64,000 nucleotides of DNA. Source: Pseudomonas viridiflava. Lineage in GTDB: Bacteria; Pseudomonadota; Gammaproteobacteria; Pseudomonadales; Pseudomonadaceae. Numbering within the stretch: position 1 is the stretch's first letter; each line of letters opens with the position of its first letter. The notes under the pieces are model-generated. The model did not search any database. It was not told where the DNA came from and worked only from the letters and a program-made list of their open reading frames with translations. The stretch covers positions 1 through 64,000 of the forward strand of contig NZ_UTBG01000054.1 of NCBI RefSeq assembly GCF_900580675.1, given 5' to 3'. A program made the translations under genes and the position numbers. Below are positions 1,238-51,100 of the stretch, in pieces.

Positions 1238-1260
1238 ACGCTGCTATCCAGGAAACAGTC

Positions 1261-3687: not shown

Positions 3688-3713
3688 GTCCATGCCTTTG
3701 AAAGCGTGAAAAC

Positions 3714-3750: not shown

Positions 3751-3764
3751 ATTGCGGTAGGTAA

Positions 3765-4436: not shown

Positions 4437-4513
4437 GGCGACACTCCTTCAGTTTTGAAACATTCAGTCGCAAGGATCATAACAGACGCTCTGTAACAAG
4501 CGATGGCGAGAGT

Positions 4514-4574
4514 TTGACAGTGTGTTTCATTCGGGTATTATGGCGCCCGCTGAGACGGGATAGGCTACTATAAT
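4514..4574 (+). promoter_or_regulatory. Promoter elements upstream of tRNA-Ser
   Basis: TTGACA (4514-4519) is followed 16 bp later by TATTAT (4536-4541). A second -10-like TATAAT lies at 4569-4574, about 15 bp before the tRNA 5' end. Either could drive the tRNA. Confidence 0.55.
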
Positions 4575-4588
4575 CCTGTGATGCACAA

Positions 4589-4679
4589 GGGAAATTGGCA
4601 GAGTGGTTGAATGCACCGGTCTTGAAAACCGGCGAACGTTAATAGCGTTCCCAGGGTTCGAATCCCTGGTTTCCCGCCA
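4589..4679 (+). tRNA. tRNA-Ser (anticodon TGA)
   Basis: This 91-nt class II tRNA has an acceptor stem pairing GGGAAAT (4589-4595) with GTTTCCC before discriminator G and an encoded CCA (4677-4679). The anticodon stem is CCGGT/ACCGG around loop CTTGAAA, giving anticodon TGA at 4623-4625. It has a long variable arm (GCGAACGTTAATAGCGTTC region) and a T-arm with TTCGAAT. The gene stays intact because the prophage restores its 3' half on integration. Confidence 0.97.
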
Positions 4680-4684
4680 AGATT
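4617..4684 (+). repeat. attL core: 68-bp direct repeat within tRNA-Ser
   Basis: Bases 4617-4684 are identical to 47212-47279. The repeat runs from the anticodon stem to five bases past the CCA, as expected for a tyrosine integrase that targets the tRNA 3' half. The copy here lies in the intact tRNA. The right copy lacks the tRNA 5' half. Confidence 0.95.
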
Positions 4685-4690
4685 CATACG

Positions 4691-4713
4691 AAAGCCCCGC
4701 AATGCGGGGCTTT
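4691..4713 (+). terminator. Intrinsic terminator after tRNA-Ser, phage-supplied
   Basis: The hairpin AAAGCCCCGC / GCGGGGCTTT is followed by T residues. It lies just inside the prophage end. A similar hairpin follows the attR copy at 47288-47310, so the incoming element appears to replace the tRNA terminator as well as its 3' half. Confidence 0.85.
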
Positions 4714-4753
4714 TGTGTTTCTGGGGTTTGGGTGGAACACTACGGTTTTTGAG

Positions 4754-4792
4754 AGGCGTTCCGAAACTTTCGAGTAGGCGTTCCGAAACTTT
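4754..4792 (+). repeat. Two 17-bp direct repeats next to the integrase gene
   Basis: AGGCGTTCCGAAACTTT occurs at 4754-4770 and again at 4776-4792, offset by 22 bp (about two helical turns), between the att core and the integrase stop. The position and spacing suit arm-type integrase binding sites; that function is inferred. Confidence 0.6.
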
Positions 4793-4794
4793 GC

Positions 4795-5844: not shown

Positions 5845-5845
5845 C

Positions 5846-6343
5846 TCAGTTCACCCTGGAGAAGTCAGGCGTCCAAACTGGTCGCGCCGGCGGAGGGCTT
5901 TGTTCAATGGGGGCTGTATTGATCATGCCAAGCTTCATGCGAGCGTACATGCGCCCAACCAGCGGACGACCCCCCCGACTCTCAACGAATACCCAATTGC
6001 GGTCAGTTAGCCACTTCCGTTGATGGGCTCGCTGCTTATAGCCAGTAAGGTCGGCCAGTTCATCGTCCGAGAAGATTTCAGCCTCTATTGCTTTGGGCAG
6101 TGAACGGTGCGTATACCCCACGACAGGCTGCGCGAGCGGGCGTTCCTGAGCGTTTAGCGTCGCATCAGCGAGCGCTGCCCCGCGCAGCTTTTCGTGGGGT
6201 ATAAGTGCCTCCGCGGTGGCATTAGGAGGAGCAATAATGCCTGCTGCTGCGCAGCAGAGACTGTTTGTTTCTAGCGTGTCGACGCCTCTGTCAGCGCGAA
6301 GCAAAGCGGGCAGTGCGTTGGTGTTGTCCTGGTGGTTCTTCAT
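5846..6343 (-). CDS. DUF4224-like protein, candidate excisionase/directionality factor
   Basis: In this 165-aa protein the C-terminal half (FSDDELADLTGYKQRAHQRK, then WLTDRNWVFVESRGGRPLVGR) resembles the DUF4224 winged-helix-like domain often encoded next to phage integrases. The first 85 residues are low in motifs and rich in Ala. It sits one base upstream of int and overlaps the HD-domain gene by four bases, so it belongs to the int operon. A role in excision is inferred from position and fold type. A degraded copy of its 3' end is found at 48192-48240. Confidence 0.75.
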   Translation of the reverse strand: MKNHQDNTNALPALLRADRGVDTLETNSLCCAAAGIIAPPNATAEALIPHEKLRGAALADATLNAQERPLAQPVVGYTHRSLPKAIEAEIFSDDELADLTGYKQRAHQRKWLTDRNWVFVESRGGRPLVGRMYARMKLGMINTAPIEQSPPPARPVWTPDFSRVN

Positions 6344-6882
6344 GCCGCTTTCCTCCGGTGTTCGAGAGCAAGTTGGTCCATCAGCCGCTGGTGGTAGATG
6401 AGTCGGGCTTCGGCGGCTGGCCAGGGGCGGATGGTTTCAGCCATAGGTTCGATGCCGACCAAGCAATCCCAGATAGCCGGATCGGGTGGCATGAGGTCGC
6501 GGCGTTCGGTAGCAAGTGCAATCAAATCGGCCTTGTAGATGCAGGCGGGGAGTTCTGGAGCGATGTCGAACCGCTCGCATACTCGCCACCAGATACAATC
6601 CTCGAAGTGCTGGTAGGCGCTAATCCACTGCTTGAGTGGCCGCGTCATGTCGCCCAGGTACGCCTCGGCGGCGTCGTGAAGTAAGGCTGCGAGTTTGTGT
6701 TCTTCCGGCACCAGCTCGGCGACGATGCAGCTGTGTTGGGCCACGCTGTATAACTCGCGGGTGTGGCCGTTGAATCGGCACAGGTGGGCCAGCGCGTGCG
6801 AGATGTCCCGTGGGTCGATCATGTCGGCGTCAGGCTCGAACAAGTCGAAGCGCTTGCCGGTGGAGGTGAGGATCCAGTTCAT
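6340..6882 (-). CDS. HD-domain phosphohydrolase (YfbR-like)
   Basis: The 180-aa protein carries His50 (SVAQHS), the HD pair His69-Asp70 (ALLHDAAEAYLGD) and Asp78, which form the metal site of HD phosphohydrolases. The arrangement is close to YfbR-type 5'-deoxynucleotidases. Many phages carry such enzymes, possibly to adjust nucleotide pools; the substrate cannot be told from sequence. It overlaps both neighbours by four bases within the leftward operon. Confidence 0.85.
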   Translation of the reverse strand: MNWILTSTGKRFDLFEPDADMIDPRDISHALAHLCRFNGHTRELYSVAQHSCIVAELVPEEHKLAALLHDAAEAYLGDMTRPLKQWISAYQHFEDCIWWRVCERFDIAPELPACIYKADLIALATERRDLMPPDPAIWDCLVGIEPMAETIRPWPAAEARLIYHQRLMDQLALEHRRKAA

Positions 6883-7535: not shown

Positions 7536-7862
7536 TTACTGTTCCTGCTCGGTTAAATCGTTTTGCGGTCGCGGCATGTCCTCGTCTGCTCTGTAGGCGC
7601 GGATGTCGATCAGAGCTGCGACGTGTTTGATATGGGCGTAACGCAACGCCTTGACGCTATGGTCCAGAGTGGTCACCGGCAGTTGAATCCGCCCGCTGTT
7701 GATCGCCTCAGTGAAGGTCTTTTCGTTGAGGTTCTTGAAGTAATGCACGCGCAGCTTTTCCAGGGGGATAAGCACGTCGCCGAAGAGTTGGTGCAGCATC
7801 TCGACGGTTGCGCTATCCGGTGCGGGTTGCAGTCGTAGCGGTGTTTGACTGGTGTTGCTCAT
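7536..7862 (-). CDS. PrtN-like pyocin-activator family regulator
   Basis: The 108-aa protein has the PrtN-type layout: a segment reading FGDVLIPLEKLRVHYFKNLN, a helical region with GRIQLPVTT, then KALRYAHIKHVAALID. This matches the remembered PyocinActivator pattern (IPLE...YF, then a 'vhi.dlA.yID' helix). PrtN activates pyocin genes after DNA damage. Here it lies in the early-left operon of a full prophage, so it may activate late genes or only be a paralogue with a local target. ATG 7862, preceded by AAGGAGG, is chosen over an upstream ATG at 7910. Confidence 0.7.
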   Translation of the reverse strand: MSNTSQTPLRLQPAPDSATVEMLHQLFGDVLIPLEKLRVHYFKNLNEKTFTEAINSGRIQLPVTTLDHSVKALRYAHIKHVAALIDIRAYRADEDMPRPQNDLTEQEQ

Positions 7863-8031
7863 GGGCGGCGGCCTCCTTGCGTTTGAGTCGTGAAGGGTGG
7901 TTCCAGGCATTCAGGCAATGGCGTTTGGTCAGCTCCCGCAGATGCTCCGGCACTTCGAGGAGCGCAGCGTTGCGCTCCTCGCGTGTGCCCATGGCGACGA
8001 TCTGGCGGGCGTACTCCCTAGGCCACGTCAC
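7813..8031 (-). CDS. Small prophage protein (WPREYAR type), unknown function
   Basis: This short frame of about 72 aa begins at GTG 8031 (VTWPREYARQIVAMGTREER), with a conserved-looking ALLEVPEHLRELTKRH helix and a variable tail. It overlaps the end of the antirepressor-like gene by 14 nt and the start of the PrtN-like gene by 50 nt. I recall similar small proteins in Pseudomonas phages without assigned function. The exact start is uncertain. Confidence 0.6.
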   Translation of the reverse strand: MTWPREYARQIVAMGTREERNAALLEVPEHLRELTKRHCLNAWNHPSRLKRKEAAAHEQHQSNTATTATRTG

Positions 8032-8302
8032 GGTTGTCTGCCGGGATTGCTGGCAGTTCGAGCCCCAACTGTTCGGCGAGCCATCGGATACCGGCTTGGC
8101 GGACCTTGGTCGACTGGCTGTACTGCATGCCGGCGGTTTCGTGGTACCAGTTGCTGTGCTTGACTCGTAGGTACTCTCGATCACGCACCGGGAAGGCAGG
8201 TAGTTTGCGGTCGTTGAGCAGGCCCTTTGCACGCATGAGTGCGATCAGCTTGGGGCGAGTGAGGCCGAAGTACTTGGCGGCTTTTTCCAGGCTACGTTCC
8301 AT
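8018..8302 (-). CDS. KilA-C/antirepressor-type DNA-binding protein
   Basis: The 94-aa protein resembles the C-terminal DNA-binding domain of phage antirepressors: an AKYFGLTRPKLIALMRAKG helix-turn-helix-like segment followed by the YLRVKHSNWYHETAGMQYSQ stretch and a C-terminal helix. It is a stand-alone version of that domain. ATG 8302 follows a TAGGAGG ribosome site. Regulation of the lysogenic switch is plausible but inferred. Confidence 0.7.
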   Translation of the reverse strand: MERSLEKAAKYFGLTRPKLIALMRAKGLLNDRKLPAFPVRDREYLRVKHSNWYHETAGMQYSQSTKVRQAGIRWLAEQLGLELPAIPADNRDVA

Positions 8303-8311
8303 CGCGACCTC

Positions 8312-8893
8312 CTAGGCTGCATGCGCGGCGGGTGTCGCCACGGCAGCCAGGTGGGTGATGGACTCGGCCACCATGGAGTAGATCTCCACGTCACTGCCGT
8401 ACACCGTGAAGCACTTGGTGCGCGGCTTTCTGACGCCGATGCTCATGATGGTGGTGATGCCGTCGCGGGTTTTGTTGCGGTGGATTGCCAATTTGATCGG
8501 TTGCTCGAAGCCCATATCGAGGCTGATGGCACCGCCGGTTTGCACCAGGTCGAAGATCTGCTGCTTGTGTTCAGTCTTGAAAACGCCGTAGCGGCGTTCT
8601 GCGTGCGGTAGGGACGAAGGATTGGTCGGGGTGGTTGGCCCGTTGACGATCTCTTCAATGAAGTCCGCAAGCTTGAGGTGCATCTTCTTGGTATTGGTCA
8701 GGGTCAGCGTGTGGCGTTCGCTGCCCAACTCAACTGTGAAGTGCGTGTCGACTTTGCGGCGCTCGACGTTCAGGCGGAAGGCCAGGGCCTCACGCTGTGT
8801 TTCGGCGCGCAAGTGGTGATTGAAGGTCTGGGTCAGACTGACTTGGGCCTTGAGCAGGGTCAGGGTGCGGTTGTCGATTTTGTACTTTCTCAT
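8312..8893 (-). CDS. Prophage hypothetical protein
   Basis: The 193-aa soluble, mixed alpha/beta protein is rich in Thr and charged residues, with no membrane segment and no motif I recognise. Its ATG overlaps the preceding stop by four bases (TCATG on the plus strand), so it is coupled to the first gene of the leftward operon. Confidence 0.7.
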   Translation of the reverse strand: MRKYKIDNRTLTLLKAQVSLTQTFNHHLRAETQREALAFRLNVERRKVDTHFTVELGSERHTLTLTNTKKMHLKLADFIEEIVNGPTTPTNPSSLPHAERRYGVFKTEHKQQIFDLVQTGGAISLDMGFEQPIKLAIHRNKTRDGITTIMSIGVRKPRTKCFTVYGSDVEIYSMVAESITHLAAVATPAAHAA

Positions 8894-9066
8894 GCCGCGT
8901 GCCCGCCGTCGTTAGGGCCGAAGGGGGCGGGCGTGGAGCGGTTTTTCAGTTTGGGTTTGGACGCGATGAAGGCGCAGCCGCAGTCTTGTGCCAGGCGGCG
9001 GATTTCGAAGATTCGGGAGGGGTTAGCAGCGGCCGGGTGGACGTGCAGGGTGGCTGTGGTGTGCAT
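8890..9066 (-). CDS. Small first gene of the leftward early operon
   Basis: This protein of about 58 aa starts at ATG 9066 (MHTTATLHVHPAAANPSRIF) behind GAGG; a further ATG at 9102 lies too close to the promoter to be preferred. It contains RRLAQDCGCAF, with two cysteines. Function unknown. It is about 40 bp downstream of the operator-bearing promoter. Confidence 0.6.
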   Translation of the reverse strand: MHTTATLHVHPAAANPSRIFEIRRLAQDCGCAFIASKPKLKNRSTPAPFGPNDGGHAA

Positions 9067-9101
9067 GGTGTTGCCTCGCTCTGTGGTGGAAGAGTGAGGC
9101 A

Positions 9102-9130
9102 ATAGTTAACCTTAAAGGTTAATCTGTCAA
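9102..9130 (-). promoter_or_regulatory. Leftward early promoter (PL-like) with repressor operator
   Basis: On the minus strand a perfect TTGACA (9125-9130) is followed by a spacer filled with the 17-bp near-perfect palindrome TTAACCTTAAAGGTTAA (9106-9122) and a weak -10 (TAACTAT, about 9102-9108). The same palindrome type occurs twice between cI and cro, so the CI repressor probably shuts this operon. Confidence 0.8.
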
Positions 9131-9167
9131 CAAAAACAACCTTTCAGATTGTTTTTTGGTCGGACTT

Positions 9168-9854
9168 TTAATGCTCGCTTTGCTTTTTTTTCTTCATTCC
9201 CAGGTCAGCCTTGATATCTTTCCATGCTAATTCTAAAACTTCCTGCGCTTTTGAGTTCAGGTCGTTAACGACTTGGTTTATGCTTTTCGTATCGTCACGA
9301 ACAGTCGCTATTGTTTCCTCCATCAATCGTGTTAATTCAATAGACGACTGTTTGTTTCTATCAAGCATTAATTCAATAGTGCATTGTACTAATATGATCT
9401 CGCTATACAGTTCGTCTGAATCTGCTCTTTGAAGAAATGTCGGATCTAACTGCATTTTACTGTGTAGTAACGATACCTTTGAAAGGAATTCAGCAATTCT
9501 CTCTCGCAATTTTCCTTGCCAATCGTGTCTGAACGTAGCGACACTCGAGCGTATTTGATTTTTATGTGTATTCCAAGCAAACCATGCAATAACACATCCG
9601 ACGGCTAGAGTGGCTAGTACCGAAGGCCAATCGGTGCCTGATTCGACTTGTATTGTGAGTTTTTGGTTGTCAGCCAAAGTGATTGCGGTTGGAGATGTTG
9701 GATGCGGCTTGATGGTATGTTGTGAAAGATCTTCATCCAATGCATCCACCTGTAGAGTCATTTTTTCAGGAGCGGGGGGGGAGGGGTGAGGGGTATTCGG
9801 CAAGACCTCAGATTTTGGTGCTTCGTGTTCCGCTTTTTTTTTAAAATCATCCAT
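9168..9854 (-). CDS. AT-rich membrane-anchored protein, unknown function
   Basis: The 228-aa protein has a Pro-rich cytoplasmic N-terminus, one membrane segment near residues 78-96 (WPSVLATLAVGCVIAWFAW), and a long helical, charged C-terminal half likely to form coiled coil, ending in a KKKK cluster. Base composition is clearly more AT-rich than the surrounding phage genes. It is located between the repressor and the PL-like promoter, on the same strand as cI, so it could be expressed in the lysogen. That makes it a candidate lysogenic-conversion or exclusion gene, but no family was recognised. Confidence 0.65.
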   Translation of the reverse strand: MDDFKKKAEHEAPKSEVLPNTPHPSPPAPEKMTLQVDALDEDLSQHTIKPHPTSPTAITLADNQKLTIQVESGTDWPSVLATLAVGCVIAWFAWNTHKNQIRSSVATFRHDWQGKLRERIAEFLSKVSLLHSKMQLDPTFLQRADSDELYSEIILVQCTIELMLDRNKQSSIELTRLMEETIATVRDDTKSINQVVNDLNSKAQEVLELAWKDIKADLGMKKKKQSEH

Positions 9855-9904
9855 GTATTATATTCCTTGGCATTTTTTTAATAGAAACCACTCTTGGTTT
9901 TCGC

Positions 9905-10552
9905 CTATAAATCCGAAATCTTCCAGCGCGCTCTACCACATATACTCCAGTCTTCAGTCATTTTTATTATACGTTCAGGCCAGTCAGGATTGATCGCATA
10001 TAAATATTGTTCATTGCCTTCTTGTTTCAACTGTTTGAGAGTTGCGGCTTGATCACGAGTTCTCTTGGCTGCTACAAAGTGTCCAGGTAGTGCATCAAGT
10101 GAAGGGTCTATAACAATCTTATCTCCCTCAACAAACTTGGGTTCCATGCTTATTCCCTCCACTCTTAGAATGAATGCCCTTGGACCTACAGGTCCGGGAG
10201 CATCAATCCATTCTTCAGCATCCCTTGGATCAAAACTGCCATTTGTCTCGCACCAAGCGCCCGCCGCGATGGACCCTATTACCGGCAGCTTGCGTCCTGT
10301 GTGACTTATGATGGTCGCGTTATTGAATTCCCCGACGCCATAAGGCATATCGAGATACCCATTATGTAAATCTAGAGCTTTCTCAATCTGTCGAGCTATT
10401 TGATCACCGATACCTTTGGTTGGATTTTTTCCGCCAAAGGCGCTGACCTGCGCAGGTGCTTTTCCAAGACGCTCGGCGATGTCTGTAAGCCGCAATTTTT
10501 TTTCGGCTAAGACTCTGCGGAAATTTTGCAAGCGGGTATCTGAAATTTTCAT
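9905..10552 (-). CDS. cI: CI-type repressor, LexA/S24 self-cleaving
   Basis: The 215-aa protein has an N-terminal helix-turn-helix (about residues 18-50) and a C-terminal S24 peptidase domain. The cleavage site is Ala97-Gly98 (IAAGAW), catalytic Ser135 (GISMEPKF) and probable Lys173 (TLKQL), 38 residues apart as in LexA. It should maintain lysogeny and be inactivated through RecA after DNA damage. It is divergent from cro across a region with two 17-bp operators. A third operator controls the leftward operon. Confidence 0.93.
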   Translation of the reverse strand: MKISDTRLQNFRRVLAEKKLRLTDIAERLGKAPAQVSAFGGKNPTKGIGDQIARQIEKALDLHNGYLDMPYGVGEFNNATIISHTGRKLPVIGSIAAGAWCETNGSFDPRDAEEWIDAPGPVGPRAFILRVEGISMEPKFVEGDKIVIDPSLDALPGHFVAAKRTRDQAATLKQLKQEGNEQYLYAINPDWPERIIKMTEDWSICGRARWKISDL

Positions 10553-35514: not shown

Positions 35515-36078
35515 ATGTCCATCACTGTGCAGCAACTTCAAAGCATCATGCCCAACGCCCGCCGCAAAGCGGGCGTTTTTGTATCCGCGCTAAATGCGGC
35601 CATGAGCAACCGCAAGATCGATACGCTGAAGCGCCAGGCGGCATTCCTTGCCCAGATCGGCCATGAGTCCGGCCAACTGCAGTACGTACGTGAGCTGGGC
35701 AGCGATCAGTACCTCAGCAAGTACGACACCGGCCCGCTGGCCGTGAAGCTGGGGAACACGCCTGAGGCTGATGGTGATGGTCAACGCTATCGCGGCCGAG
35801 GGCTCATCCAGATTACCGGTCACAACAACTACCTGCGCTGCAGCCTGGCGTTGTTCGGCGATGAGCGATTGCTGCGCACGCCTGAGATGCTCGAGCTGCC
35901 GCAATGGGCAGCTGAGTCGGCAGCGTGGTTCTGGTGGGTGAACGGGTTGAACGCACTCGCGGATCAAGATCAGTTCACCACCATCACGCGTCGAATCAAC
36001 GGCGGCCTCAACGGCCTTGAAGATCGGCTGCAGCTTTGGACCAGGGCGAGGGCAGTGTTATGCGTCTCTTTGACCTGA
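35515..36078 (+). CDS. Endolysin, chitinase-like glycoside hydrolase family 19
   Basis: The 187-aa muramidase-like endolysin has the GH19 signature FLAQIGHESGQLQYVRE with the probable catalytic Glu of GHES, then RYRGRGLIQITGHNNY and ESAAWFWW. There is no signal peptide, so export depends on the holin at 15.0 kb. It overlaps the Rz start by 19 bases. Confidence 0.93.
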   Translation: MSITVQQLQSIMPNARRKAGVFVSALNAAMSNRKIDTLKRQAAFLAQIGHESGQLQYVRELGSDQYLSKYDTGPLAVKLGNTPEADGDGQRYRGRGLIQITGHNNYLRCSLALFGDERLLRTPEMLELPQWAAESAAWFWWVNGLNALADQDQFTTITRRINGGLNGLEDRLQLWTRARAVLCVSLT

Positions 36079-36602
36079 TCCCCGTGCAGTTACGCGGTGC
36101 CGCTGTCGCTTTGTTGCTGGTGGTTTTGGCTGCCGGTTCTGCTGCGTTGGCCTGGAACGTTCAAGGCTGGCGTTACGGCCAGCAGCTAGAACGCCAGGCC
36201 CGGCTCCATGCCGACAGTCTCACCGAGTTATCCCTGGCCAGCGCGGCTCTGCAGCGCGACGAGCAGGGCAAGCGCTTCGCCCTGGAGCAGCGCCTGCAGA
36301 ACATTGACGAAACCCACCACAAGGAACTGATCGATGTGCAAACCAAGCAGGCTCGCCTGCGTGATCGCCTGGCTACTGCTGATCTGCGGCTGTCAGTCGT
36401 ACTCGCCGCGACAGATACCGGGAGCGGCTGCTCAGTGCCAACCACCACCGCCACCGGCCGCGTGGTTCATGGCCCCACAAGAGCCGAACTTGACCCTGCG
36501 CATGCTCAACGAATTATCGGTATCACCGATGCCGGTGACCAAGGATTGATCGCCCTGCGGGCCTGTCAGGCCTATGCAAAAGAAGTTTCTACACCGAAGT
36601 AA
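36060..36602 (+). CDS. Rz-like inner-membrane spanin
   Basis: The 180-aa protein has an N-terminal signal-anchor (VALLLVVLAAGSAALAW) and a long periplasmic coiled coil (LERQARLHADSLTELSLASA onward), as expected for i-spanins that fuse inner and outer membranes at lysis. ATG 36060 lies in the end of the endolysin gene. Rz1 is nested inside in another frame. Confidence 0.88.
   Translation: MRLFDLIPVQLRGAAVALLLVVLAAGSAALAWNVQGWRYGQQLERQARLHADSLTELSLASAALQRDEQGKRFALEQRLQNIDETHHKELIDVQTKQARLRDRLATADLRLSVVLAATDTGSGCSVPTTTATGRVVHGPTRAELDPAHAQRIIGITDAGDQGLIALRACQAYAKEVSTPK
36334..36549 (+). CDS. Rz1-like outer-membrane lipoprotein spanin, nested in Rz
   Basis: The 71-aa frame runs entirely inside Rz in a different frame. 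It starts MCKPSRLACVIAWLLLICGC, a lipoprotein signal with lipobox ICGC, then a Pro-rich stretch (CQPPPPPAAW). A short Pro-rich lipoprotein embedded in Rz is the classic Rz1 arrangement. Confidence 0.88.
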   Translation: MCKPSRLACVIAWLLLICGCQSYSPRQIPGAAAQCQPPPPPAAWFMAPQEPNLTLRMLNELSVSPMPVTKD

Positions 36603-36749
36603 AAGGAGCGGCCGGGCAGGATGCGTCAACATCCAGCTCGACCACCTTCCCGCAGAACGTCCCTGCAAGTCCAGCCAAGGCTCCTGCTTCGTGCACAAAG
36701 CGGAGCGAGCTTATCACTGTTTATCCATACAGCAAAGGTCTTGCTTTAT

Positions 36750-37539
36750 ATGTCCACACCCATCATCCCTTGGATGGGCGGCAAACGCCGCCTGGCCGAC
36801 CGCCTTATCCCGCTCTTCCCACCCCACGAATGCTACGTCGAAGTCTTTGCCGGCGGAGCCGCGCTCTACTTCATGCGGCCCCAGGCCGCGCCGGTTGAAG
36901 TCCTCAACGACACCAACGGCGACCTAGTGACGCTGTACCGCGTCGTGTAGAACCACCTGGGGGATTTCATGCGCCGGTTCAAATGGGCGCTCAGTCACGT
37001 CAGGTGTTCGAGTGGCAGAAGATGACCCGCCCGGAAACCCTTACCGACATCCAGCGCGCTGCCCGATTCTTCTGCAGCACCATGCCTTCACCGGCAAGGT
37101 CACCGGGCAAACGTTCGGTATTGCCACTACCGGCCCGGCCACCAACCTGCTGCGGATCGAGGAAAACCTTTCCGCAGCGTGGCAGCGTCTGTCCGGCACT
37201 TATGTTGAGAATTTGGGCTGGCTGGAGTGCGCGGAGCGTTACGACCGGGCACACACATTTCACTACATGGACCCGCCTTACTGGCAGACGGCCGGTTATG
37301 GAATGGATTTTCCCTTTGAGAATTACGAGCGGATGGCCGACTTCATGCGGCGTTGTAAAGGCAAAGTGATGGTCAGCATCAATGACCATGCGGATATTCG
37401 GCGTGTGTTTGATGGCTTTCACTTTGAAACTGTCGATATTCGGTACTGCAATACAAATCAGCGACAGCAGAAAGCGGAGGTAAGTGGCGAGTTGGTAATT
37501 ATGAACTGGCAGCCAGCAGCACTGGGTGGCCTGTTCTGA
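36750..37539 (+). pseudogene. Broken DNA adenine methylase (Dam family)
   Basis: The 5' part encodes MSTPIIPWMGGKRRLADRL and the SAM-binding EVFAGGAALYF, then stops at TAG 36948-36950 where the family reads Gln (VVQNHL type). Further shifts are needed near 37000 (about one base lost in the 'ALTSRQVFEW' region) and near 37070 (loss within 'FFYLQHHAF'). The 3' part resumes in another frame with LQHHAFTGKVTGQTFGIATT and the catalytic DPPY (HYMDPPYW). So a nonsense change and two frameshifts inactivate it, unless the fragments have been retained separately. Confidence 0.88.
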
Positions 37540-37831: not shown

Positions 37832-38479
37832 TTAGCTGCGGCCTTGCCTGCAGGGAAGCCACTCAAAGTTTTCTTTTTGCTGGCAAAATTCCATTGCAAT
37901 TTTTTCTGCCTGTGCTGCTGTTATGTTCGGGTTAAGCCACTCACTGGCGTGCGCTGGTGAAAGGACCAAAGGGTGCCGTCCGCAGATTCCGACCATGCCT
38001 TGATCGCTTGCGGCGGTAATAATGACAAACCCATCGCCCTCATGATGCTCCGGCCCAGGACTTACCTCGGCAAGCGCCCCGAAGAGCATAGGGCGCCTGC
38101 TCTTCAGGCGGATGAAGTAAGGCTGCTTTTCATTCGGATTTTCCGGATCTTCTACCCATTCATACCAGCCTTCACAGGGTACTATGGCCCGGCCACTCGG
38201 CCAGATTTGTGCGAAAAAGGTCCCCGTGGCAATCGTTTCTACCCGAGCATAGATTTTTTCAAGATGTTTGCCCTTCGCCCATGACGGAGCCCACCCCCAC
38301 TTAATTGCATCGATGTGCAGCCCGTACTCTGTAGCGTGTAGGACATGCGCCCGAGTAGACGGTGCGACATTATGGCGCCCTATGGGCTCAGCGGCGTAAT
38401 CGTTGATTAGCTCTATGTGAGGACTCAATTCTTCTACGGATTTCATTAATGCGTTATATTGCACGAATCGTCCGCACAT
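37832..38479 (-). CDS. SOS response-associated peptidase-like protein (SRAP/YedK family)
   Basis: The 215-aa protein starts MCGRF, giving the catalytic Cys2 that crosslinks to abasic sites in single-stranded DNA. The family blocks RHNVAPS, KWGWAPSWAK, ARVETI and CEGWYEW are all present. The active-site His of the usual 'IHxRMP' motif is replaced: here the segment reads GICGRHPLVLSP. This may weaken crosslink release, but the alignment is from memory. It is the first leftward gene of the cargo zone; phage copies may protect DNA during replication. Confidence 0.9.
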   Translation of the reverse strand: MCGRFVQYNALMKSVEELSPHIELINDYAAEPIGRHNVAPSTRAHVLHATEYGLHIDAIKWGWAPSWAKGKHLEKIYARVETIATGTFFAQIWPSGRAIVPCEGWYEWVEDPENPNEKQPYFIRLKSRRPMLFGALAEVSPGPEHHEGDGFVIITAASDQGMVGICGRHPLVLSPAHASEWLNPNITAAQAEKIAMEFCQQKENFEWLPCRQGRS

Positions 38480-39284: not shown

Positions 39285-40601
39285 TTAACTTTTTCTGTCG
39301 ATTAAAATCTGGCGAATTAGTGCAAGTGCCACCCCTAATATAACCCCGAGGAATAAAGCAAGACCTATATATTTTAGTATTGAGGGCTTAACCGGGCGAA
39401 TCGGCTCTTGAGCTCTTCGATCAATAGATACTAACTCTAATGCTTCCATATTAGTGTTAATATTTCGTAACCTAGCTCTTTCGGCTCTTAAAGGCTCAAT
39501 ATTCTGTAGGAAAATATCTTCATTTTTTCGCTGGTTTAACACTTCAACCTCGCGATTAGTTTCTAACATTTTTAGCTCTTTTCCAATTTCTGCAATTCTT
39601 ACGCTTGAGAGGTCATCGTTAGATCGCTGTTTTAGCATCACACGCTCTGCTTCAAGTGCATCTGTTCCCAGAAAATAAAGTGGTATAATCTGGTTGTTAA
39701 CCTCAGTGCGCATTACTTGTTTTGAATTCCCTTCTGTTGCAGTCGAGAATGACGACGGGGTGGTAGGATGCTTAATGCCCATAACCTTCGCTATAGAAAT
39801 TGCTTCAGTAAGTTCGGCTATGCGGTTATTGCGCAATGCGCTCATTTGAAGACGAAGCCCTCCTAACTCATCTTTTAGTATGGCTCGTTTGACATTGTCC
39901 GCTTCAAGAAGCTGCGCAATTTTGGACTCTTTATCTGTTTCATAATTAGAGCGCGCAGCACTTATCTTTCCTTGGACCTCCGCTAGTCTATTTTCCACAA
40001 TAACCTTGAGATCGGCGCCTATTTGTTTTCGCTCCATCGCCAAAGCAAAATCGACGAAACCATTGAGAATGGCAACACCCTCAACACCGGCTGGGTAAAG
40101 CATATCCAGGCGAATATAACTACTAAGTTCGGTTTTTTTTGGATCTGGTAAAACTAAACTTATTGAGTTAAGGTTGAAAAGTTCAAAGCCCTGCTCTAAG
40201 CTCTGGCCCGGTTTTTTGAACGCTTCAAAAAGCTCTGGATGTGCCTTGAAAAAGCCAAAGCGTGCTTCGTAAGAATCGAGCCGAGCTCCGATCTTGTTCA
40301 AAGCTTCCGTTGGAGGTAGGGTATATACCTGAGAACGATTGAGGGCATCAAGGTCGTTAATAGCGGTAGGGCGTAATAAGGTGCTGACTGCATATTGCTT
40401 AGGGGTTAATACTGCAACGAGCAACCCAACTATCCCCGCTATTATAATTATAGTTAAAATAAAAAGCCGCTGTTTCCATAGGTTTATAAAGATAGCAACT
40501 AAGTCTATTTCATCGTCATGAATCTTACGCTGGGTCGTCGGTATGTCATTCAAAATCAATTCATCCTGAATAAATAGTAGTGCTGCGGGTTTGTGAAGCA
40601 C
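39285..40601 (-). CDS. wzz: Wzz-type O-antigen chain length determinant
   Basis: The 438-aa inner-membrane protein has two terminal membrane helices (about residues 47-66, FILTIIIIAGIVGLLVAVL, and 411-429, IGLALFLGVILGVALALI) around a large periplasmic coiled-coil-rich domain. The N-terminal DDEIDLVAIFINLWKQR and C-terminal RPVKPSILKYIGLALFLGVI segments are typical of polysaccharide co-polymerases. The length matches the longer Pseudomonas Wzz proteins. TTG 40553 (NDIPTTQRKI) behind AGGA is a good alternative start. AT-rich, inside the prophage, so a candidate for changing O-antigen length in the lysogen. Confidence 0.9.
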   Translation of the reverse strand: MLHKPAALLFIQDELILNDIPTTQRKIHDDEIDLVAIFINLWKQRLFILTIIIIAGIVGLLVAVLTPKQYAVSTLLRPTAINDLDALNRSQVYTLPPTEALNKIGARLDSYEARFGFFKAHPELFEAFKKPGQSLEQGFELFNLNSISLVLPDPKKTELSSYIRLDMLYPAGVEGVAILNGFVDFALAMERKQIGADLKVIVENRLAEVQGKISAARSNYETDKESKIAQLLEADNVKRAILKDELGGLRLQMSALRNNRIAELTEAISIAKVMGIKHPTTPSSFSTATEGNSKQVMRTEVNNQIIPLYFLGTDALEAERVMLKQRSNDDLSSVRIAEIGKELKMLETNREVEVLNQRKNEDIFLQNIEPLRAERARLRNINTNMEALELVSIDRRAQEPIRPVKPSILKYIGLALFLGVILGVALALIRQILIDRKS

Positions 40602-40879: not shown

Positions 40880-41176
40880 TTAACTGTTGTCCTTGTCTAC
40901 AACAAACCGCGCCTGCGCCACGGCCTGAGCCTGGAGGCGTTCGCGCTGATAGATCTCAAAGGCCTGCAGATCAATCACCTGAGCCTGCACCAAGCTCGTG
41001 AGCCAGCCCGCAGAATGATGGAGCTTGTTAGAGAGTGTTTCTATGTTATTAGCTTGCATAATATCGCGTAGCTGCTTGGCCCATGCTTCGCGCAGAACTG
41101 TAGTGGACAAACCCTTTCGGGAAAGAGGTATTTCGGAGCTTACCCATTCGTTTCCACCGACATTGATCTCATCCAT
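40880..41176 (-). CDS. Hypothetical cargo protein
   Basis: The 98-aa helical soluble protein (LREAWAKQLRDIMQANNIET then IYQRERLQAQAVAQARFVVD) has no recognised motif. Codon use is reasonable and the frame starts MDEINVGGNEWVSS. Possibly a small regulator. Confidence 0.5.
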   Translation of the reverse strand: MDEINVGGNEWVSSEIPLSRKGLSTTVLREAWAKQLRDIMQANNIETLSNKLHHSAGWLTSLVQAQVIDLQAFEIYQRERLQAQAVAQARFVVDKDNS

Positions 41177-41330: not shown

Positions 41331-41645
41331 TCATGGGGGGCAAGCGCGCTTGGCAAAAGACTTCATGAGCTCGGTAACGACCTGCCGTTCACAGAGAGTC
41401 AGTTTGCGAAACAATAAATTTAAGTCGCCTTGGTCGCACGCGCTAGAGTAGGTGCCCGTTAAAACGTATAGAACATCGACTCCGATCTCTGCTAACTTGG
41501 CAAGGTATAGCGCGCTCGGACTTCGTTGTCCATGTTCATACTTAGATTGCGCATTTGCCATAACTCCACCAATTGCAGCGAAATCTTTTTGCAGGTAGTT
41601 CAAACGAATACGTTCATCTCGCAGTCGCATTCCTATTCTAAGCAT
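41331..41645 (-). CDS. XRE-family helix-turn-helix regulator
   Basis: The 104-aa protein has an N-terminal Cro/C1-type helix-turn-helix (MRLRDERIRLNYLQKDFAAI, then QSKYEHGQRSPSALYLAKLA) and a short C-terminal helical region. ATG 41645 (MLRIGMRLRDE) fits the family start better than ATG 41675. Target unknown; it may regulate neighbouring cargo genes. Confidence 0.8.
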   Translation of the reverse strand: MLRIGMRLRDERIRLNYLQKDFAAIGGVMANAQSKYEHGQRSPSALYLAKLAEIGVDVLYVLTGTYSSACDQGDLNLLFRKLTLCERQVVTELMKSFAKRACPP

Positions 41646-41675
41646 AAACACTCCATAAAAACCCTTGCTCAGCAC

Positions 41676-42300: not shown

Positions 42301-44205
42301 ATGCTAAGAAATACTTTGATGAATCTAACAGTTAGATCTAAACTAACACTCGGCTTCGCACTGGTTATTGTGCTCACGATGCTGATCGCTCTGACTGGTT
42401 GGAGAGGCATTCTTTCGATGAGTGAGCGAAGTGAGCGTGTATCAGAAATCGCTAAACTAAGTACTCTGACGCGAGATATGCGAATCGCTCGGCTAATCTA
42501 CAGTCATGAGTCAAACGACGAAAATGCTGCTAGCTGGCTTCAAGCGTATGGAAATCTCGAGAGCCATCTTGCCTATCTCGGCAAGGCGCTTGATTCTGAA
42601 CTTAACGTGCCGCATATAAAAATCGCGATTAATGCGATGAGTGATTATAAGGGCTTTTACGAAAGATTGGTTGATGCCACTCATTCTCGCGAAGCAAGCC
42701 GAATTGTATTCGGAAGTAATGGCGAAACCGCGGGAGAGAAGCTCCAAGAGCTCAATCGACTCGCTAATTCATCTGAGGGCAATGGTGGTCAACGAAATTC
42801 AATGTTGCAAGCGCTCACTCTTTTTCAAAAAATGCGTTTCGACGTTCGTGGATATACCTACACACTCAAGCCTGAAGCAGAAAAACAAGCTAGCGATTCC
42901 ATAACCACAACCACAGAGTACATTAAGTCTTTAGAGGGAGTCGGTATCTCACCCAATTTAGTCCGGGAGATTGAGGAGTCAATGGGAAGATACGGAGCTG
43001 CGATTGGTAAATTTTCTGCGGCTCAGCTTGCGATCAACCAAGCTCAGGCTGGAATTTCCAAAAATATTGATATTTTGTTGAGTTCCGCTAACCAATTAGC
43101 AAAAAATCAAATTGAATTGCGTGCTAATGACGTGCGACAAGCAAGTAAGGTTCTAATTATTTGGCTCAGCGTGGCGCTCGTTGTAAGTGTGTTGGCTGCA
43201 TGGGTCATAACTCGCCTGATAGTAGTTCCTCTAAATGAAACCCTGCATTTGGCTAGTAGAGTAGCGACTGGTGATTTGACGTATGATCTGCCCACTACTC
43301 GAAAAGACGAGCTCGGCATGTTACAGGCCAGCATGTATCGAATGACTATGAATTTGCGACAATTGGTAGTCGGTTTGCGGGATGGTGTAACCCAATTGGC
43401 GAGCGCAGCCGAGCAGTTGTCAGCGGTGACAGAACAAACAAGCGCTGGCGTTAATACACAACGCAGTGAAACCGATCAAGTAGCAACCGCGATGAATGAA
43501 ATGGCCGCCACGGTACAGGAAGTCGCTAAAAATGCAGAGCAAGCATCGCACGCGGCTATTAGTGCTTCGAGAGAGGCTCGCGACGGCGATGTTGTGGTAT
43601 CCAGGGCTGTAGTTCAAATCGAAACGCTTGCAAATGAAGTTGGTCGGTCCAAGATTGCGATGGATGAGCTTAAGCAAGAGAGCGACAAGATAGGTGGAGT
43701 GCTTGAAGTGATTAAGGCTGTCGCTGAGCAGACTAACCTGTTAGCGCTCAATGCGGCCATCGAAGCCGCTCGCGCTGGAGAGGCTGGGCGTGGCTTTGCA
43801 GTAGTTGCTGATGAAGTAAGAAGTCTCGCTCAACGTACTCAGAAGTCAACTGAAGAGATTGCGGGGCTTATTGGTGGTTTACACGACCGTACTGCACATG
43901 TAGCTACATCTTTGGAAAAAAGCCGCTTGCTCACGGATAACAGCGTAGGGTTGACCAAAGAAGCAGGGGCATCTATTGGAAGTATTAGCCGATCAATTTC
44001 AACGATCGAATCAATGAACCAACAAATTGCAGCCTCCGCTGAAGAGCAAAGTGCCGTCGCCGAAGAAATTAACCGAAGTGTTCTGAACGTGCGCGATATC
44101 TCCGAGCAGACAGCATCTGCAAGCGAGGAGACCGCTGCATCTAGCGCAGAGCTCGCGAGACTGGGTGTGCATCTGCAGGGCTTAATGAGCAAGTTCATCA
44201 TATAG
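42301..44205 (+). CDS. Methyl-accepting chemotaxis protein
   Basis: The 634-aa chemoreceptor has an N-terminal membrane helix (about 14-36), a periplasmic helical ligand domain of about 240 residues with four-helix-bundle character, and a second membrane helix (about 282-304, [20 protein letters not shown]). A HAMP domain (about 305-357) and a cytoplasmic signalling domain with the conserved hairpin [20 protein letters not shown] (about 475) follow. It would feed the host CheA/CheW system. The gene is intact, AT-rich, and lies within the prophage boundaries. The ligand is unknown. Confidence 0.95.
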
Positions 44206-44756
44206 GCCTGAGAATAAAGTAGTTCAGAAATTGATAAGCAGTGCGGATCTCAGAGAGGGGAGCCGCACTGAGAGTCCAGTAGATTATTCGAGATACTTCA
44301 ACACCATTTGAAGGTGCTATGTCAGAAATATTGGATTCGTAGCTCGGTAAAAATCTGTTTAATGTCCCCGGAGTTTTCGCCAATCACTAATTAAGCACCA
44401 CACACGTTAATGCCCAGTTCACCCGATCTATGTTCATCGGATTGGACCGTTAATTCCATCAGAGCTGCTCCTAGCGCGGGCTGATTTTCGTACTTTCCTG
44501 CAAGCGAGTGAGCGAGTATTGCTTTGTTGTTTGCGCTACTCAGTCAAAAGTTTTAAGTATGGCAGCGCGGGCAATTGTTACGGGAGCAACTGCTTAACCT
44601 CTTGCGAGCATAGCTTATGACGTTTGGAGAGCCCATCCAGAGCCAATTAGGCGTTTATGCTACTGCATGTATGCTTACATTCCAGCCTACAATACAGGCC
44701 CTTCCCTGATATATCCCACATACCCCTACACAATCGGCGTGTGCTGCCTGAGCGGT
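44206..44756. other. Intergenic region after the chemoreceptor
   Basis: No gene is supported in these 551 bp. A hairpin AGTGCGG (44240-44246) / CCGCACT (44263-44269) follows the MCP but lacks a T-run. Confidence 0.4.
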
Positions 44757-45095
44757 TTACTCCTTTTGGATGCGGTCCCACTCGTTCGAGTACTGTTCGG
44801 TCTCGTTGATGCAGTTTTCGCAGAGAGCGGCCTCGTAGTACCCCTCCTGTTCCAGTGCTGTTGCTAGCTCTGCACCTTCGAGGATTACCTGGCAATCGTT
44901 ATGGTAGCCGCCTGGATCCGTAACGCCCTCACATGCTCTCTGGAGATGGGGCGTAATGACTGCCTTTTGAAGGTCACTCAACTGGTCGAAGCCTTTGTCC
45001 ACGGCGAGCTTGGCTATTCCGCTAACCTTGGGGTCTTCGTTATCCAAATGGCGTTTGTCAAGCAGCTGTTTCAAAACCTCGATATCTTCGCTCAT
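44757..45095 (-). CDS. Hypothetical protein with Cys pairs, divergent from HEPN gene
   Basis: The 112-aa protein starts MSEDIEVLKQLLDKRHLDNE and contains HLQRACEGVTDPGGYHNDCQ and a CENC motif near the C-terminus, so four cysteines could bind a metal. The look is that of a conserved mobile-element protein, but I do not recognise the family. It is divergent from the HEPN-domain gene, 279 bp apart, and might be functionally linked. Confidence 0.65.
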   Translation of the reverse strand: MSEDIEVLKQLLDKRHLDNEDPKVSGIAKLAVDKGFDQLSDLQKAVITPHLQRACEGVTDPGGYHNDCQVILEGAELATALEQEGYYEAALCENCINETEQYSNEWDRIQKE

Positions 45096-45374
45096 GCAGC
45101 ACTCCTCGGGTCACGCTCCGTATGAAGCATGACGATAGCACCAAGGATTAAAGCTTAGGGAAAAATTAGGGCAAATTAAGGGCCGTCCTAGACCTCTTGA
45201 GGCTACTGGGAAGGGGCTGAACCATTGTATTTGCAGGGCAGAAGCGGCCTGTAGAAACTCTAGAAGGGGTCCGAATCACTATCGGACTACCGGTTAAATA
45301 TTTGTTATGTTTCAGAGCTAAAGACGGTGAATAAAGTTATTTGCGAAATTCTTCGCTCAAATAAGGAGAGTAAA

Positions 45375-46721
45375 ATGGAAATGCCTCCAAAAGATGTAAG
45401 GAAAGCCGAGGCTGATATAATGATAGTTCTTTCCAGTAAGTCACATTTGACTGGGTTGCAGGTGTTCAATGAACTAAAGGGTATTGAATCGCTCTACAGA
45501 GAAATTGGAAAGCCCGGCGGCGGGAAAATTTATTTGTCGAATAAAGCCAATGATAGTTTTTTAAGATTGGTGGGCGCGGTAGGGGAGTATTTGCCGAGCA
45601 GAGATTTCGTGGGGCGCGATGATATTTACAGAGCATGCAAGACTGTTGTTGGAGCGCTTTGTGAGGAAGGAGCTCGGAAGTTGGACGCTCAGTCTTTCAT
45701 TAATGCCGCTGAGAAAATAATTGCGGCAACGATCCAGCCTCATAGGTTTTACACGACTTTGGATGGCGTGCATTTCGAGGATTTCACAGAGTTAGAGGTA
45801 GGCCGGCTGTCTATACACAAGTCTGATTTGACGATTCTTCAAAAGAGTGAGGCGCATCAAAAAACTCGCGACTCCCTGTGGCGAGGAATGGGAGAAGCCT
45901 TATGGATCACCGGGGAAATAACCGGGAGCCACAAAGAATGTGAAAGAATTTTTTTTGAGAACGTAAAATTAGCTTGCGGACTTCTTACGCTTTCTTTGGC
46001 TATGGCCGGGGAGTGGGGTGTAGTTGGGCAACGGTTAGCGCCATGCATGGATACTCGTTCAAGACCAAGCACTTCCAGCTGGTTCTCTATTGCAACGGAA
46101 TCCAAACAGTTGTGCGCCAGTACTTCGTGGGGTGGGAACTCTTTACAGCGCCTGGAAAAAAAATTTGTATCTGACCTTCTTGAGAGAGACTGGTTCCAGA
46201 ATCTGATAGGAATACTTCAAGGTGATGGAAAGTCAGATGTTGAGCAGGCAATCCAGCGTGGCGTTTACTGGTACTTCGACGCTCAGATGGACACGTCGCT
46301 TGAAATGCAAATGGTCAAGTTTTGGAGTTGCATAGAATGCATTTTTTCGTTTATGAACGATGGCCAAACCACAACATCGATAAGGAATGGTATGGTCGGT
46401 ATGTTCATACTTGGAGGTTACCGGCTCGTTGATGAGAAGGAGATGACATCGCTACGAAGTCAGATAAAAGCGCTCTATGAACTACGTTGTGGCGCGGTGC
46501 ATGACGCAAAGCATAACCATGTTAGTCAGCGAGACGTTGCGCTGGTAAGTAAATGGGCCGCGTGGGTAATGATAGAAGTAGCAGGGTTAGCTGTCGCAGG
46601 ATTCAAAACCCGAAAAGAAATCAAAATACAAACGGATTATTGGTTCGAAAAACTCCAAGGGCAGTTAACGCCGACCGCAGAAAAATGCCCTACATGTGGG
46701 AGTAGAATTACCCAGTCCTAG
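45375..46721 (+). CDS. HEPN-domain (ApeA-like C-terminus) protein, candidate anti-phage effector
   Basis: The 448-aa protein starts at ATG 45375 behind AAGGAG; a GTG at 45327 has no such site. The N-terminal 280 residues are uncharacterised. The C-terminal third has the pattern of ApeA-type HEPN domains: MQMVKFWSCIECIFSFM, then LYELRCGAVHDA, giving the R-x4-H ribonuclease motif at Arg371-His376, followed by a helix. A CPTCG zinc-knuckle half lies at Cys438-Cys441. HEPN proteins often cleave RNA in abortive-infection defence. It is AT-rich and placed next to attR, a usual spot for prophage defence cargo. Function inferred. Confidence 0.75.
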   Translation: MEMPPKDVRKAEADIMIVLSSKSHLTGLQVFNELKGIESLYREIGKPGGGKIYLSNKANDSFLRLVGAVGEYLPSRDFVGRDDIYRACKTVVGALCEEGARKLDAQSFINAAEKIIAATIQPHRFYTTLDGVHFEDFTELEVGRLSIHKSDLTILQKSEAHQKTRDSLWRGMGEALWITGEITGSHKECERIFFENVKLACGLLTLSLAMAGEWGVVGQRLAPCMDTRSRPSTSSWFSIATESKQLCASTSWGGNSLQRLEKKFVSDLLERDWFQNLIGILQGDGKSDVEQAIQRGVYWYFDAQMDTSLEMQMVKFWSCIECIFSFMNDGQTTTSIRNGMVGMFILGGYRLVDEKEMTSLRSQIKALYELRCGAVHDAKHNHVSQRDVALVSKWAAWVMIEVAGLAVAGFKTRKEIKIQTDYWFEKLQGQLTPTAEKCPTCGSRITQS

Positions 46722-46993: not shown

Positions 46994-47211
46994 AGCCGCG
47001 CTATCTGGGTGACAAGTGGGTGGTCGGTACGGGCCCAATCTGCTTTGATACAGCGTGAAACCGATAAAGCGGGGTGGGGCGGGTGTGGGCAAAAACAGTT
47101 CCCAAACTAATTTCGCGGCCCTTGTAGAATAAGGCTTGTAGCTTGATGGCTAGCTGAGAGTTATGGAACGCCGGCCAACGTCAACGCCCCGGGCCGCTTG
47201 AGTTCGCATAT

Positions 47212-47279
47212 CGGTCTTGAAAACCGGCGAACGTTAATAGCGTTCCCAGGGTTCGAATCCCTGGTTTCCCGCCAAGATT
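47212..47279 (+). repeat. attR core: second copy of the tRNA-Ser 3' repeat
   Basis: These 68 bp are identical to 4617-4684. Upstream sequence (CTTGAGTTCGCATAT) is not tRNA, so this is only the 3' half and cannot fold as a tRNA. It marks the right end of the intact prophage and the left end of the remnant element that follows. Confidence 0.95.
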
Positions 47280-47287
47280 TACTCAAG

Positions 47288-47310
47288 AGCCCCGCTATTG
47301 CGGGGCTTTT
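47288..47310 (+). terminator. Intrinsic terminator after attR
   Basis: AGCCCCGC / GCGGGGCT with TTT, homologous in position to 4691-4713. It comes from the next element or the original chromosomal tRNA terminator. Confidence 0.75.
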
Positions 47311-47381
47311 GCGTTTCTGGGGTACGGGTATTTCGTCACCGATTTTCGCACGCGTTCCATTACTATTGTGGGAGTGTTCCA

Positions 47382-48190
47382 TTTCGTCATCCGCTTTCCA
47401 TGCCTGTTGATCAGCAGGTACTTGGATGGATGGCCGACATTCCTTTCAGTTATCTCCCTGACCAATTTCCCAAGACTGTTTTCTCCCGATTCTGTGCGCG
47501 TCAGTATCCTCAGCTTCTGCCCGGTTTTCCCTTGCGTGACCAGGAAGTAATCGCCCTCAGTGTCATCGCTGCGCATGATGATCACGTCAGCTGGCCGCTG
47601 GCCGGTTAAGTAGCCAAGATCCATAGCTTCCTTCAGTTCAGGTTCTGCCATCCCGTAAACCGCATCCCAGACCACAGCGTTGGCGTAGTAATCGCGCGGG
47701 ACATCTTTATTTTTCCTTACGCCTTGGCAAGGGTTCTCCCGCTCGGTAAGCCCCCACTCACGAGCCATATTGAACACATGTGACAGAAGGGCGATCTCCC
47801 TATTGGTTCGAACTTTGGCCGTTCGGGCATTGCGATAGCCGGCGATGTTGGCTGGCGTGATCGAGTCAATGGGAGCGCTATCGAACGTCGGCCTGAGTTG
47901 TTTGAGCTCTGCCAGGTTATCGGTTTGTGTCCGAGCACCCTTTTTCGGAATGGCATCACGAACATAGCGGTCAAAAATGCCCTTCATGATTGTCAGATCA
48001 CCAGGTTTATCTTTGGCCTCCAGTTCTGCCCATTTGAGTCGAGCTTTGTCCAGGTCCTTACCAAGGGGGATGTCCTTGCCGGTGGCATCCCTGTAGTAGA
48101 AGGCGGTCCAGGTGGTGCCGTTCTTACGCTTCCTGGTGCGCTGGTACATGCGCCGTGGGAGGTGGCGGTATTCAGTACTGCGGGGCGCAT
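47382..48190 (-). pseudogene. Truncated integrase of a second, related element
   Basis: The translated product is very similar to the integrase at 4795-5844 (for example IFDRYVRDAIPKKGARTQ, TGQRPADVIIMRSDD). The original ATG at 48190 is followed by a one-base loss near codon 4, leaving an internal start at 48149. Similarity ends at KRMTK (about 47382), before the positions of Arg309, His328 and Tyr338 of the intact enzyme, and the frame then runs into unrelated codons to 47295. It cannot be catalytic. Confidence 0.92.
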
Positions 48191-50607: not shown

Positions 50608-51018
50608 ATGGATAGGCCGTACCCTCCATCGTCACTTCTTGAGTTGTCGGAGCTATCCGACTTCGGCATCCGGCTGACTCCGGCACCTAAAGTGTGGGAC
50701 TGGCTCCAAGCCGAGATCCCCGCCGACACCGGCACCATTCACAACGAAGACCATGCCCACCTACTGGATGCAGACATCGGGGTCATGTGGACCTCGTCGA
50801 GCTTCGAGAAGCAGGGTCGTACAGTTCTGGGCCAAACCGAACAGCTTGAGATGCGCGGCCATGACGTCGAGGAGTTCGTCGGAGTCGTCCGCCGCTACGC
50901 TGCAAGCCCTGACGTTCAAGCGTTGGTGGATGCTGCAAACAGTCCTGCTGAGGTGTCTGTTGATCAACAGGTACTTGGACGAATGACCGACATTCCTTTC
51001 GCCTATCTCCCTGACTAA
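50608..51018 (+). pseudogene. Phage putative metallopeptidase gene with internal deletion
   Basis: The 136-aa product starts like a phage protein family I remember as a putative metallopeptidase (IHNEDHAHLLDADIGVMWTS, then GRTVLGQTEQ). It jumps directly to the family C-terminus (MRGHDVEEFVGVVRRYAASP). The middle of about 70 residues that normally contains HExxH-type residues is missing in frame. The end reads into an antisense integrase fragment. A catalytic role is therefore unlikely. Confidence 0.65.
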
Positions 51019-51100
51019 TCTCCCCAAACTGTTTTCCCCGGATTCCGTACGCATCAGGATTCGGAGCTTCTGCCCTGTCTTGCCCTGCGGTTCCAGGAAG
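50957..51100 (-). pseudogene. Fragment of a third related integrase
   Basis: On the minus strand this segment encodes GENSLGRLVREIGERNVGHS and KYLLINRH, plus KTGQ/KLRI upstream with a frame change near 51060. It equals the stretch from about residue 222 to 265 of the intact integrase. Like the copy at 47382 it ends close to the KYLLIN region. Confidence 0.85.

Follow-up and report, generated by a model that had tools for sequence, protein, structure and literature searches.

A prophage-borne Wzz-type protein of Pseudomonas viridiflava as a candidate agent of O-antigen length conversion

The prophage and its accessory slot

The window, the whole 64,000-nucleotide stretch of Pseudomonas viridiflava DNA analyzed here, carries a prophage delimited by two identical repeats: attL (4617–4684, plus strand), composed of the 3′ part of a tRNA-Ser(tga) gene (4589–4679) plus AAGATT, and attR (47212–47279, plus strand). 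The 25-base att core is present in exactly two copies in the genome, both inside the window. Since the repeats enclose positions 39285–40601, the gene located there on the minus strand, wzz, encoding a predicted polysaccharide co-polymerase, lies inside the prophage, where a sequence-only reading of the same DNA had placed it. A position of wzz outside mobile DNA is ruled out by the restriction of att to these two copies, together with phage-family DNA flanking the slot of the gene on both sides.

Genes between the att copies include a tyrosine integrase (4795–5844, minus strand; PF00589, phrog_1), a CI-like repressor, primase, terminase subunits, portal, head protease, endolysin, and an Rz-like spanin. 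Phage PS17, an R-pyocin relative, shares 75% identity with the prophage across the tail sheath/tube region. The lysis genes (35515–36602, plus strand; phrog_181 and phrog_2466), whose DNA is conserved in related phages, are followed by a Dam-like methyltransferase gene (36621–37539, plus strand) that lies in pieces in different frames, whereas relatives compared by eye, L064 among them, carry intact forms of 264–267 aa. Given this disruption beside the slot, the prophage is possibly less than fully active. attR is followed directly by a second integrase, shortened to 284 aa (47295–48149), and a third integrase-like stretch is present at 50954–51100. The prophage appears to have integrated in front of the remnant of an older element, and both stretches are perhaps remnants of older elements in the tRNA-Ser site, reaching host DNA near 58 kb; a gene like the one near 58 kb flanks the tRNA-Ser site in another genome (G285), as judged by eye.

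The accessory slot begins after the SRAP peptidase gene (37832–38479, minus strand; PF02586, 144.6 bits; phrog_1599), the last phage-family gene before it, and ends at a conserved phage arm adjoining attR (47079–47210). Relatives of the integrase were found in 138 IMG/VR stretches, of which 80 loci, corresponding to 79 distinct records with integrases 68–99% identical, were kept. Among the first 50 loci (50 records), 41 contain some match to the window at 35.5–47.4 kb, 23 match the lysis-to-methyltransferase DNA over at least about 670 bases, 11 match the SRAP gene, and ten contain a match that starts at 47079–47098 and continues into att. Five phage-family loci match 56–133 bases of the right-hand arm at 74–79% identity, with an exact att core close by in three of them. 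These borders, the SRAP gene on the left and the attP arm on the right, bear out the earlier view of wzz as prophage cargo: the gene is located in the accessory slot of the phage family, outside the core modules, and the content of this slot varies between relatives.

Besides wzz, the slot contains a 98-aa ORF upstream of it (40880–41176, minus strand; no family), an HTH_3 regulator (41331–41675, minus strand; PF01381, 24.7 bits against a cut-off of 23), and two further cargo genes. The product of the second cargo gene (42301–44205, plus strand) is a methyl-accepting chemotaxis protein, complete and equipped with an HBM sensor domain (PF00015, PF16591); its best PHROG match, phrog_8572, is a PHROG without assigned function. 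The third cargo gene (45327–46721, plus strand) is a 464-aa ORF that matches no family at cut-off. Among 297 other genomes of the genus, four contain a relative of this ORF, in one case a weak match; the relative in G243 (L155) lies ~5 kb from a spanin-like ORF, as judged by eye. From its position, we guess that the 464-aa ORF is perhaps a phage-defence gene. For Wzz and for the 98-aa and 464-aa ORFs, PADLOC at E 0.1 returned no match, and for the HTH protein weak matches only. IMG/VR scans with the 464-aa ORF and the chemotaxis receptor yielded no confirmed relative, and a plasmid search with the cargo DNA yielded no match.

Five phages with related integrases hold short pieces of the window cargo in their own version of the slot, covering 44292–44520 (three phages), 44642–44747 (one), and 45145–45283 (one). 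A 570-bp stretch of the cargo (44715–45283) is shared at 91% identity with G285, where the tRNA-Ser site is occupied by a different small island (L157; G285:C138:10000-24000) with a caspase-like ORF, as judged by eye. The origin of the cargo in a pre-existing tRNA-Ser island that joined the phage, an idea raised by this stretch, is not favored, as the slots of the five related phages share cargo pieces.

The wzz gene and its predicted product

ORF calling in the window delineates wzz as an intact reading frame at 39285–40601 with a GTG start and a product of 438 aa. The TTG at 40553 is probably the true start, giving 422 aa, because it is preceded by GGATGA and the same TTG (the "LN" codon) is present in eight of the eight relatives compared. 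wzz is encoded on the strand opposite to the phage late genes, and a promoter scan revealed no excess of promoter-like sites, with eight found and 7.1 expected by chance. With a G+C content of 41.8% (36.9% at third positions) against 58.5% in the phage core (4.8–37.5 kb), the gene is indeed AT-rich, as first noted; the cargo region at 38.5–47.2 kb has a G+C content of 46.8%.

Residues 30–93 of the product match PF02706 (Wzz) with 36.7 bits against a cut-off of 25.5, and the C-terminal segment shows a sub-cut-off GNVR match. In the alignment, two membrane segments, judged by eye, surround a long periplasmic helical domain. PCP-1 co-polymerases are marked by a proline-rich motif ahead of the second membrane segment, and such a motif, recognized by eye, is present at this position. 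A profile built from the prophage Wzz and 12 relatives matched the PDB chains of Wzc, FepE, Wzz, and WzzE. NCBIfam scores of 45.9 bits for Wzz(fepE) and 19.8 bits for WzzB are far below the equivalog cut-offs of 300 and 267, so that the protein is not classed as a WzzB or FepE orthologue.

An AlphaFold2 model built from nine sequences, with the first residue omitted from the chain and from the numbering, is weak (mean pLDDT 58.7, pTM 0.32) and places its elements, at low confidence, in the expected order: a helix (44–64), a mixed base, a long helix (174–273), and a helix (407–436). Its best PDB fold match is WzzE 8p3p (E 8.8e-08, TMq 0.45), and the co-polymerase 6rbg matches with E 5.6e-07; the top four ranks are held by WzzE and 6rbg, with Wzc fifth and FepE seventh, all with TMq of at most 0.45. 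The top folds of this weak model are thus full-length co-polymerases. The protein ends at the helix carrying the second membrane segment, without the C-terminal cytoplasmic tail present in most of the 12 other aligned rows. No kinase family match was found in a Pfam search, and the prophage Wzz is predicted to have no cytoplasmic kinase domain, unlike Wzc. The PF02706 match, the profile, and the folds agree with the initial description of the product as a full-length polysaccharide co-polymerase, which, as predicted from its sequence, is of the PCP-1 type.

Conservation was scored only where at least 90% of the other 88 rows had a residue in the alignment column. The prophage Wzz keeps all invariant residues (52/52), 59 of 63 residues at 0.95–1 conservation, 67 of 93 at 0.8–0.95, and 86 of 217 below 0.8. 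For near-invariant sites the total is 111 of 115, an ordinary value that ranks 19th lowest among the 89 rows. Against a 10-row chromosomal consensus, the periplasmic parts are ~70% identical and the membrane parts 32–34%, with the first 41 residues only 22% identical. The retention of 111/115 near-invariant residues versus 86/217 variable ones, despite a long end branch in the tree, points to purifying selection on the prophage wzz. A wzz pseudogene is ruled out by the same residue conservation pattern.

Relatives and rarity of the prophage wzz

Matches to wzz at E ≤ 1e-10 are present in 122 of 398 genus genomes, the host's own included. The best matches outside the window are 62–64% identical across these 398 genomes, and no closer relative was found in an overlapping set of 293 further-searched relatives. 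An 89-row tree places the prophage Wzz inside a 46-row clade (support 100/99) that also holds the solitary chromosomal Wzz of P. gessardii and P. yamanorum loci. Its end branch measures 0.98 changes per column versus a median of 0.12, and its placement within the clade is loose owing to this long branch. The tree was built without loci judged duplicates, without L007, L008, L011, and L104, for which the greedy ORF caller chose another ORF, and without the additional L128 copy, which is 45% identical. Also missing, because twin loci were skipped, are G052, which gave the best match of all, G390 (this copy), G143, and G140; the loci of these four genomes carry an LpxO neighbor.

A list comparison revealed that the other 45 rows of the clade all come from loci with an LpxO-like neighbor, "LpxO" being the label given to a PF05118 protein. 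The neighbors in 87 loci, classed by matches to LpxO, RpsA, and RmlA in a flank of mostly 1.5–3 kb, comprise LpxO in 45, RpsA or RmlA, indicating an O-antigen locus, in 18, and others in 24. A solitary wzz adjoining an LpxO-like gene is therefore seen in 45 of 87 Pseudomonas loci (e.g., L054 at 7637–10117, and L146); no title or abstract opening in the literature found announces a role for an LpxO-linked Wzz. When the 33 ORFs of the prophage were compared with the 87 loci at E 1e-5, a search directed at phages close to this one, none matched.

In seven named lpxO-linked loci, the Wzz is 62–64% identical to the prophage protein and has the same length and topology. These chromosomal genes have a G+C content of 55–58% (three copies measured), whereas the prophage wzz is AT-rich and sits on a long branch. 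The prophage gene most likely derives, as judged from the tree and the neighbors, from the solitary chromosomal Wzz lineage, and it has probably long evolved apart in AT-rich mobile DNA.

Within 50,697 phage records, tblastn at E 1e-5 recovered no relative of the prophage Wzz, and an O-antigen-locus Wzz query had no match at E 0.01. At E 5, tblastn gave two matches of E 1, both fragments of annotated wzc in Acinetobacter phage records; as annotated there, Wzc-type co-polymerases do occur in phage records. Two IMG/VR scans, one with a single sequence and one with a 13-row profile, both relying on short peptide patterns, produced no confirmed Wzz relative. PF02706 is absent from 50/50 and 30/30 records of phages with related integrases (79 distinct records, many of them fragments). 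PHROG 19408 (721 positions, without assigned function) matches Wzz residues 22–76 weakly, with 25.1 bits. The one plasmid match to Wzz, at 44%, is in the record of a large conjugative P. aeruginosa plasmid. Among the literature matches listed, drawn mostly from outside subscription journals, no title or abstract opening describes a phage-encoded Wzz.

Proposed function and competing explanations

The sequence-only reading had raised the question of a wzz locus elsewhere in the host, and the genome contains such genes: PF02706 is matched at five places, the prophage gene included. The nearest is a solitary, LpxO-linked chromosomal Wzz on contig C192, 59% identical to the prophage protein; the others are a 748-aa frame on C253, a short 239-aa Wzz on C176, and a 663-aa protein on C6 that is over the cut-off in one search and just under it in another. 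The prophage wzz, by these matches, adds to a chromosomal copy. On contig C211, rpsA and an ORF that looks ihfB-like by eye are followed by genes for a UDP-GlcNAc 2-epimerase and a Wzx-type protein and, at some distance, for a WbpM-type protein. This O-antigen-type cluster also holds a 456-aa ORF lacking a Pfam match as candidate Wzy, and the profile search of the genome placed no PF02706 gene in it. A WaaL-type O-antigen ligase gene is located on C50, and additional polysaccharide loci appear to lie on C253, C220, and C6. Given the C211 cluster and the WaaL-type gene, the machinery for Wzz action is probably present in the host.

On balance, the prophage wzz is likely a lysogenic-conversion cargo gene that alters O-antigen length, a reading in which we infer expression, length change, and advantage. 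A lysogen would make extra inner-membrane Wzz from the prophage, and the oligomer would work with the host O-antigen polymerase in competition with host Wzz, shifting the chain-length distribution of the Wzy-made O-antigen. The exposure of LPS to related LPS-binding phages and R-tailocins would thereby be altered, with superinfection or tailocin exclusion as the benefit. In a more specific form, which we advance tentatively and rate below even chances, the prophage Wzz may outcompete the solitary chromosomal Wzz of its own clade, reset O-antigen length, and shut out kin phages and R-tailocins. The reading draws on an intact co-polymerase gene bearing signs of purifying selection, on its place in the accessory slot of an integrated phage, and on the O-antigen-type assembly genes of the host. 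Counting against conversion are the same-clade Wzz that the host already has, promoter-like sites that do not exceed chance, a Wzy in the O-antigen cluster that is only a candidate, and the broken methyltransferase gene. Recurrence is unusable as support because the searches found no other phage with wzz.

Phage conversion of O-antigen is known; a full-length Wzz as its agent would be new if the function is confirmed. In the excerpts of PMC4815439, phage D3 of P. aeruginosa encodes an alpha-polymerase inhibitor (Iap) and a beta-polymerase (Wzy-beta) and confers superinfection resistance, and the title of a reference cited there says that the inhibitor mimics Wzz. D3 as portrayed there resembles the present case as a temperate Pseudomonas phage with the Wzx/Wzy/Wzz machine as target, but it changes linkage via an inhibitor and a polymerase, whereas the prophage here carries a full-length chain-length regulator. 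According to the excerpted texts, the BTP1 gtr operon is required for full O-antigen length (PMC4413052), and the capsule of Acinetobacter is changed by prophage Wzy genes (PMC13228068). Both, as described in these excerpts, are prophage genes altering a surface polysaccharide, as proposed here; gtr is O-antigen-modifying and Wzy is a polymerase, neither being a co-polymerase. Salmonella OpvB, a Wzz-superfamily protein, is a proposed Wzz competitor in the excerpts of PMC4652898, where opvAB leads to phage resistance. OpvB resembles the prophage Wzz as a member of the Wzz superfamily that was gained by horizontal transfer and has host Wzz as its proposed rival; the difference is that OpvAB is not described in these excerpts as phage-borne and that OpvB, at 221 aa, acts with OpvA and is phase-variable. 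In environmental Pseudomonas, O-antigen display is pivotal in tailocin sensitivity, as the excerpted PMC9213528 reports. A Pf-5 survey (PMC2647930), the available text of which does not contain the word O-antigen, reports two prophages in tRNA-Ser, one lambdoid and one defective.

The best-surviving competing explanation, which we consider unlikely, treats wzz as a host gene that the phage captured or that recombination brought to the crowded tRNA-Ser site, unexpressed and without a role in the lysogen. The scan without a clear promoter, the failure to find wzz in the phages searched, the 570 bp that the cargo shares, at 91% identity, with the unlike island at the tRNA-Ser site of G285, and the broken phage methyltransferase gene next to the slot are all consistent with such a passenger. 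The long independent history of the gene, over which nearly all conserved residues have been kept, fits poorly with long silence.

Somewhat less probable still is a role of the prophage Wzz in length control of a different Wzy-type host polysaccharide instead of O-antigen. Its clade is encoded away from rpsA-linked O-antigen loci, and the host has further Wzy_C and PF02706 genes, as such a role would suggest. Against this, the closest named models and most of the best folds are O-antigen or ECA regulators, and the additional loci on C253 and C6 each already contain an ORF matching PF02706, the one on C6 just under the cut-off once. A dominant interference, in which the prophage Wzz would mix with host Wzz or Wzy and spoil length control like D3 Iap instead of setting a length itself, is improbable: the reported Wzz mimicry of Iap and the divergence of the protein, greatest in the membrane segments and N-terminus, speak for it, but conservation is highest in the large periplasmic domain, a part that would be superfluous in a short inhibitor peptide.

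If conversion of O-antigen length by the prophage wzz is true, it would add a third phage route to O-antigen conversion, the other two being modification (Gtr, acetylation) and replacement of the polymerase (Iap/Wzy-beta). Length control by a phage-borne co-polymerase would be a simple, one-gene way to alter receptor exposure of the lysogen and could account for some host-range and tailocin patterns in soil Pseudomonas.

The accessory slot of this phage family, with defence-like and ice-nucleation genes in relatives, is a place to seek further conversion genes. Its content was read in 16 regions, L234 among them, several of which stop at the end of the record. UmuDC-like genes are present in nine of the 16 (by eye), and the cargo of related phages further includes two SIR2 proteins, one PDC-S25-like and one ThsA-like, an AAA-Toprim protein, and a HATPase gene near a C5 methyltransferase; the SIR2, AAA-Toprim, and HATPase plus C5-methyltransferase genes are located in the slots of L239, L240, L238, and L249. 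The slot is perhaps a defence-gene hotspot. In L251 (IMGVR_UViG_2636416078_000002), a phage whose integrase is 90% identical, a 1,233-aa ice-nucleation protein with 42 PF00818 stretches is encoded at 667–4368 on the minus strand (about 2666–6367 of the record), between an attR-like end and the lysis cassette.
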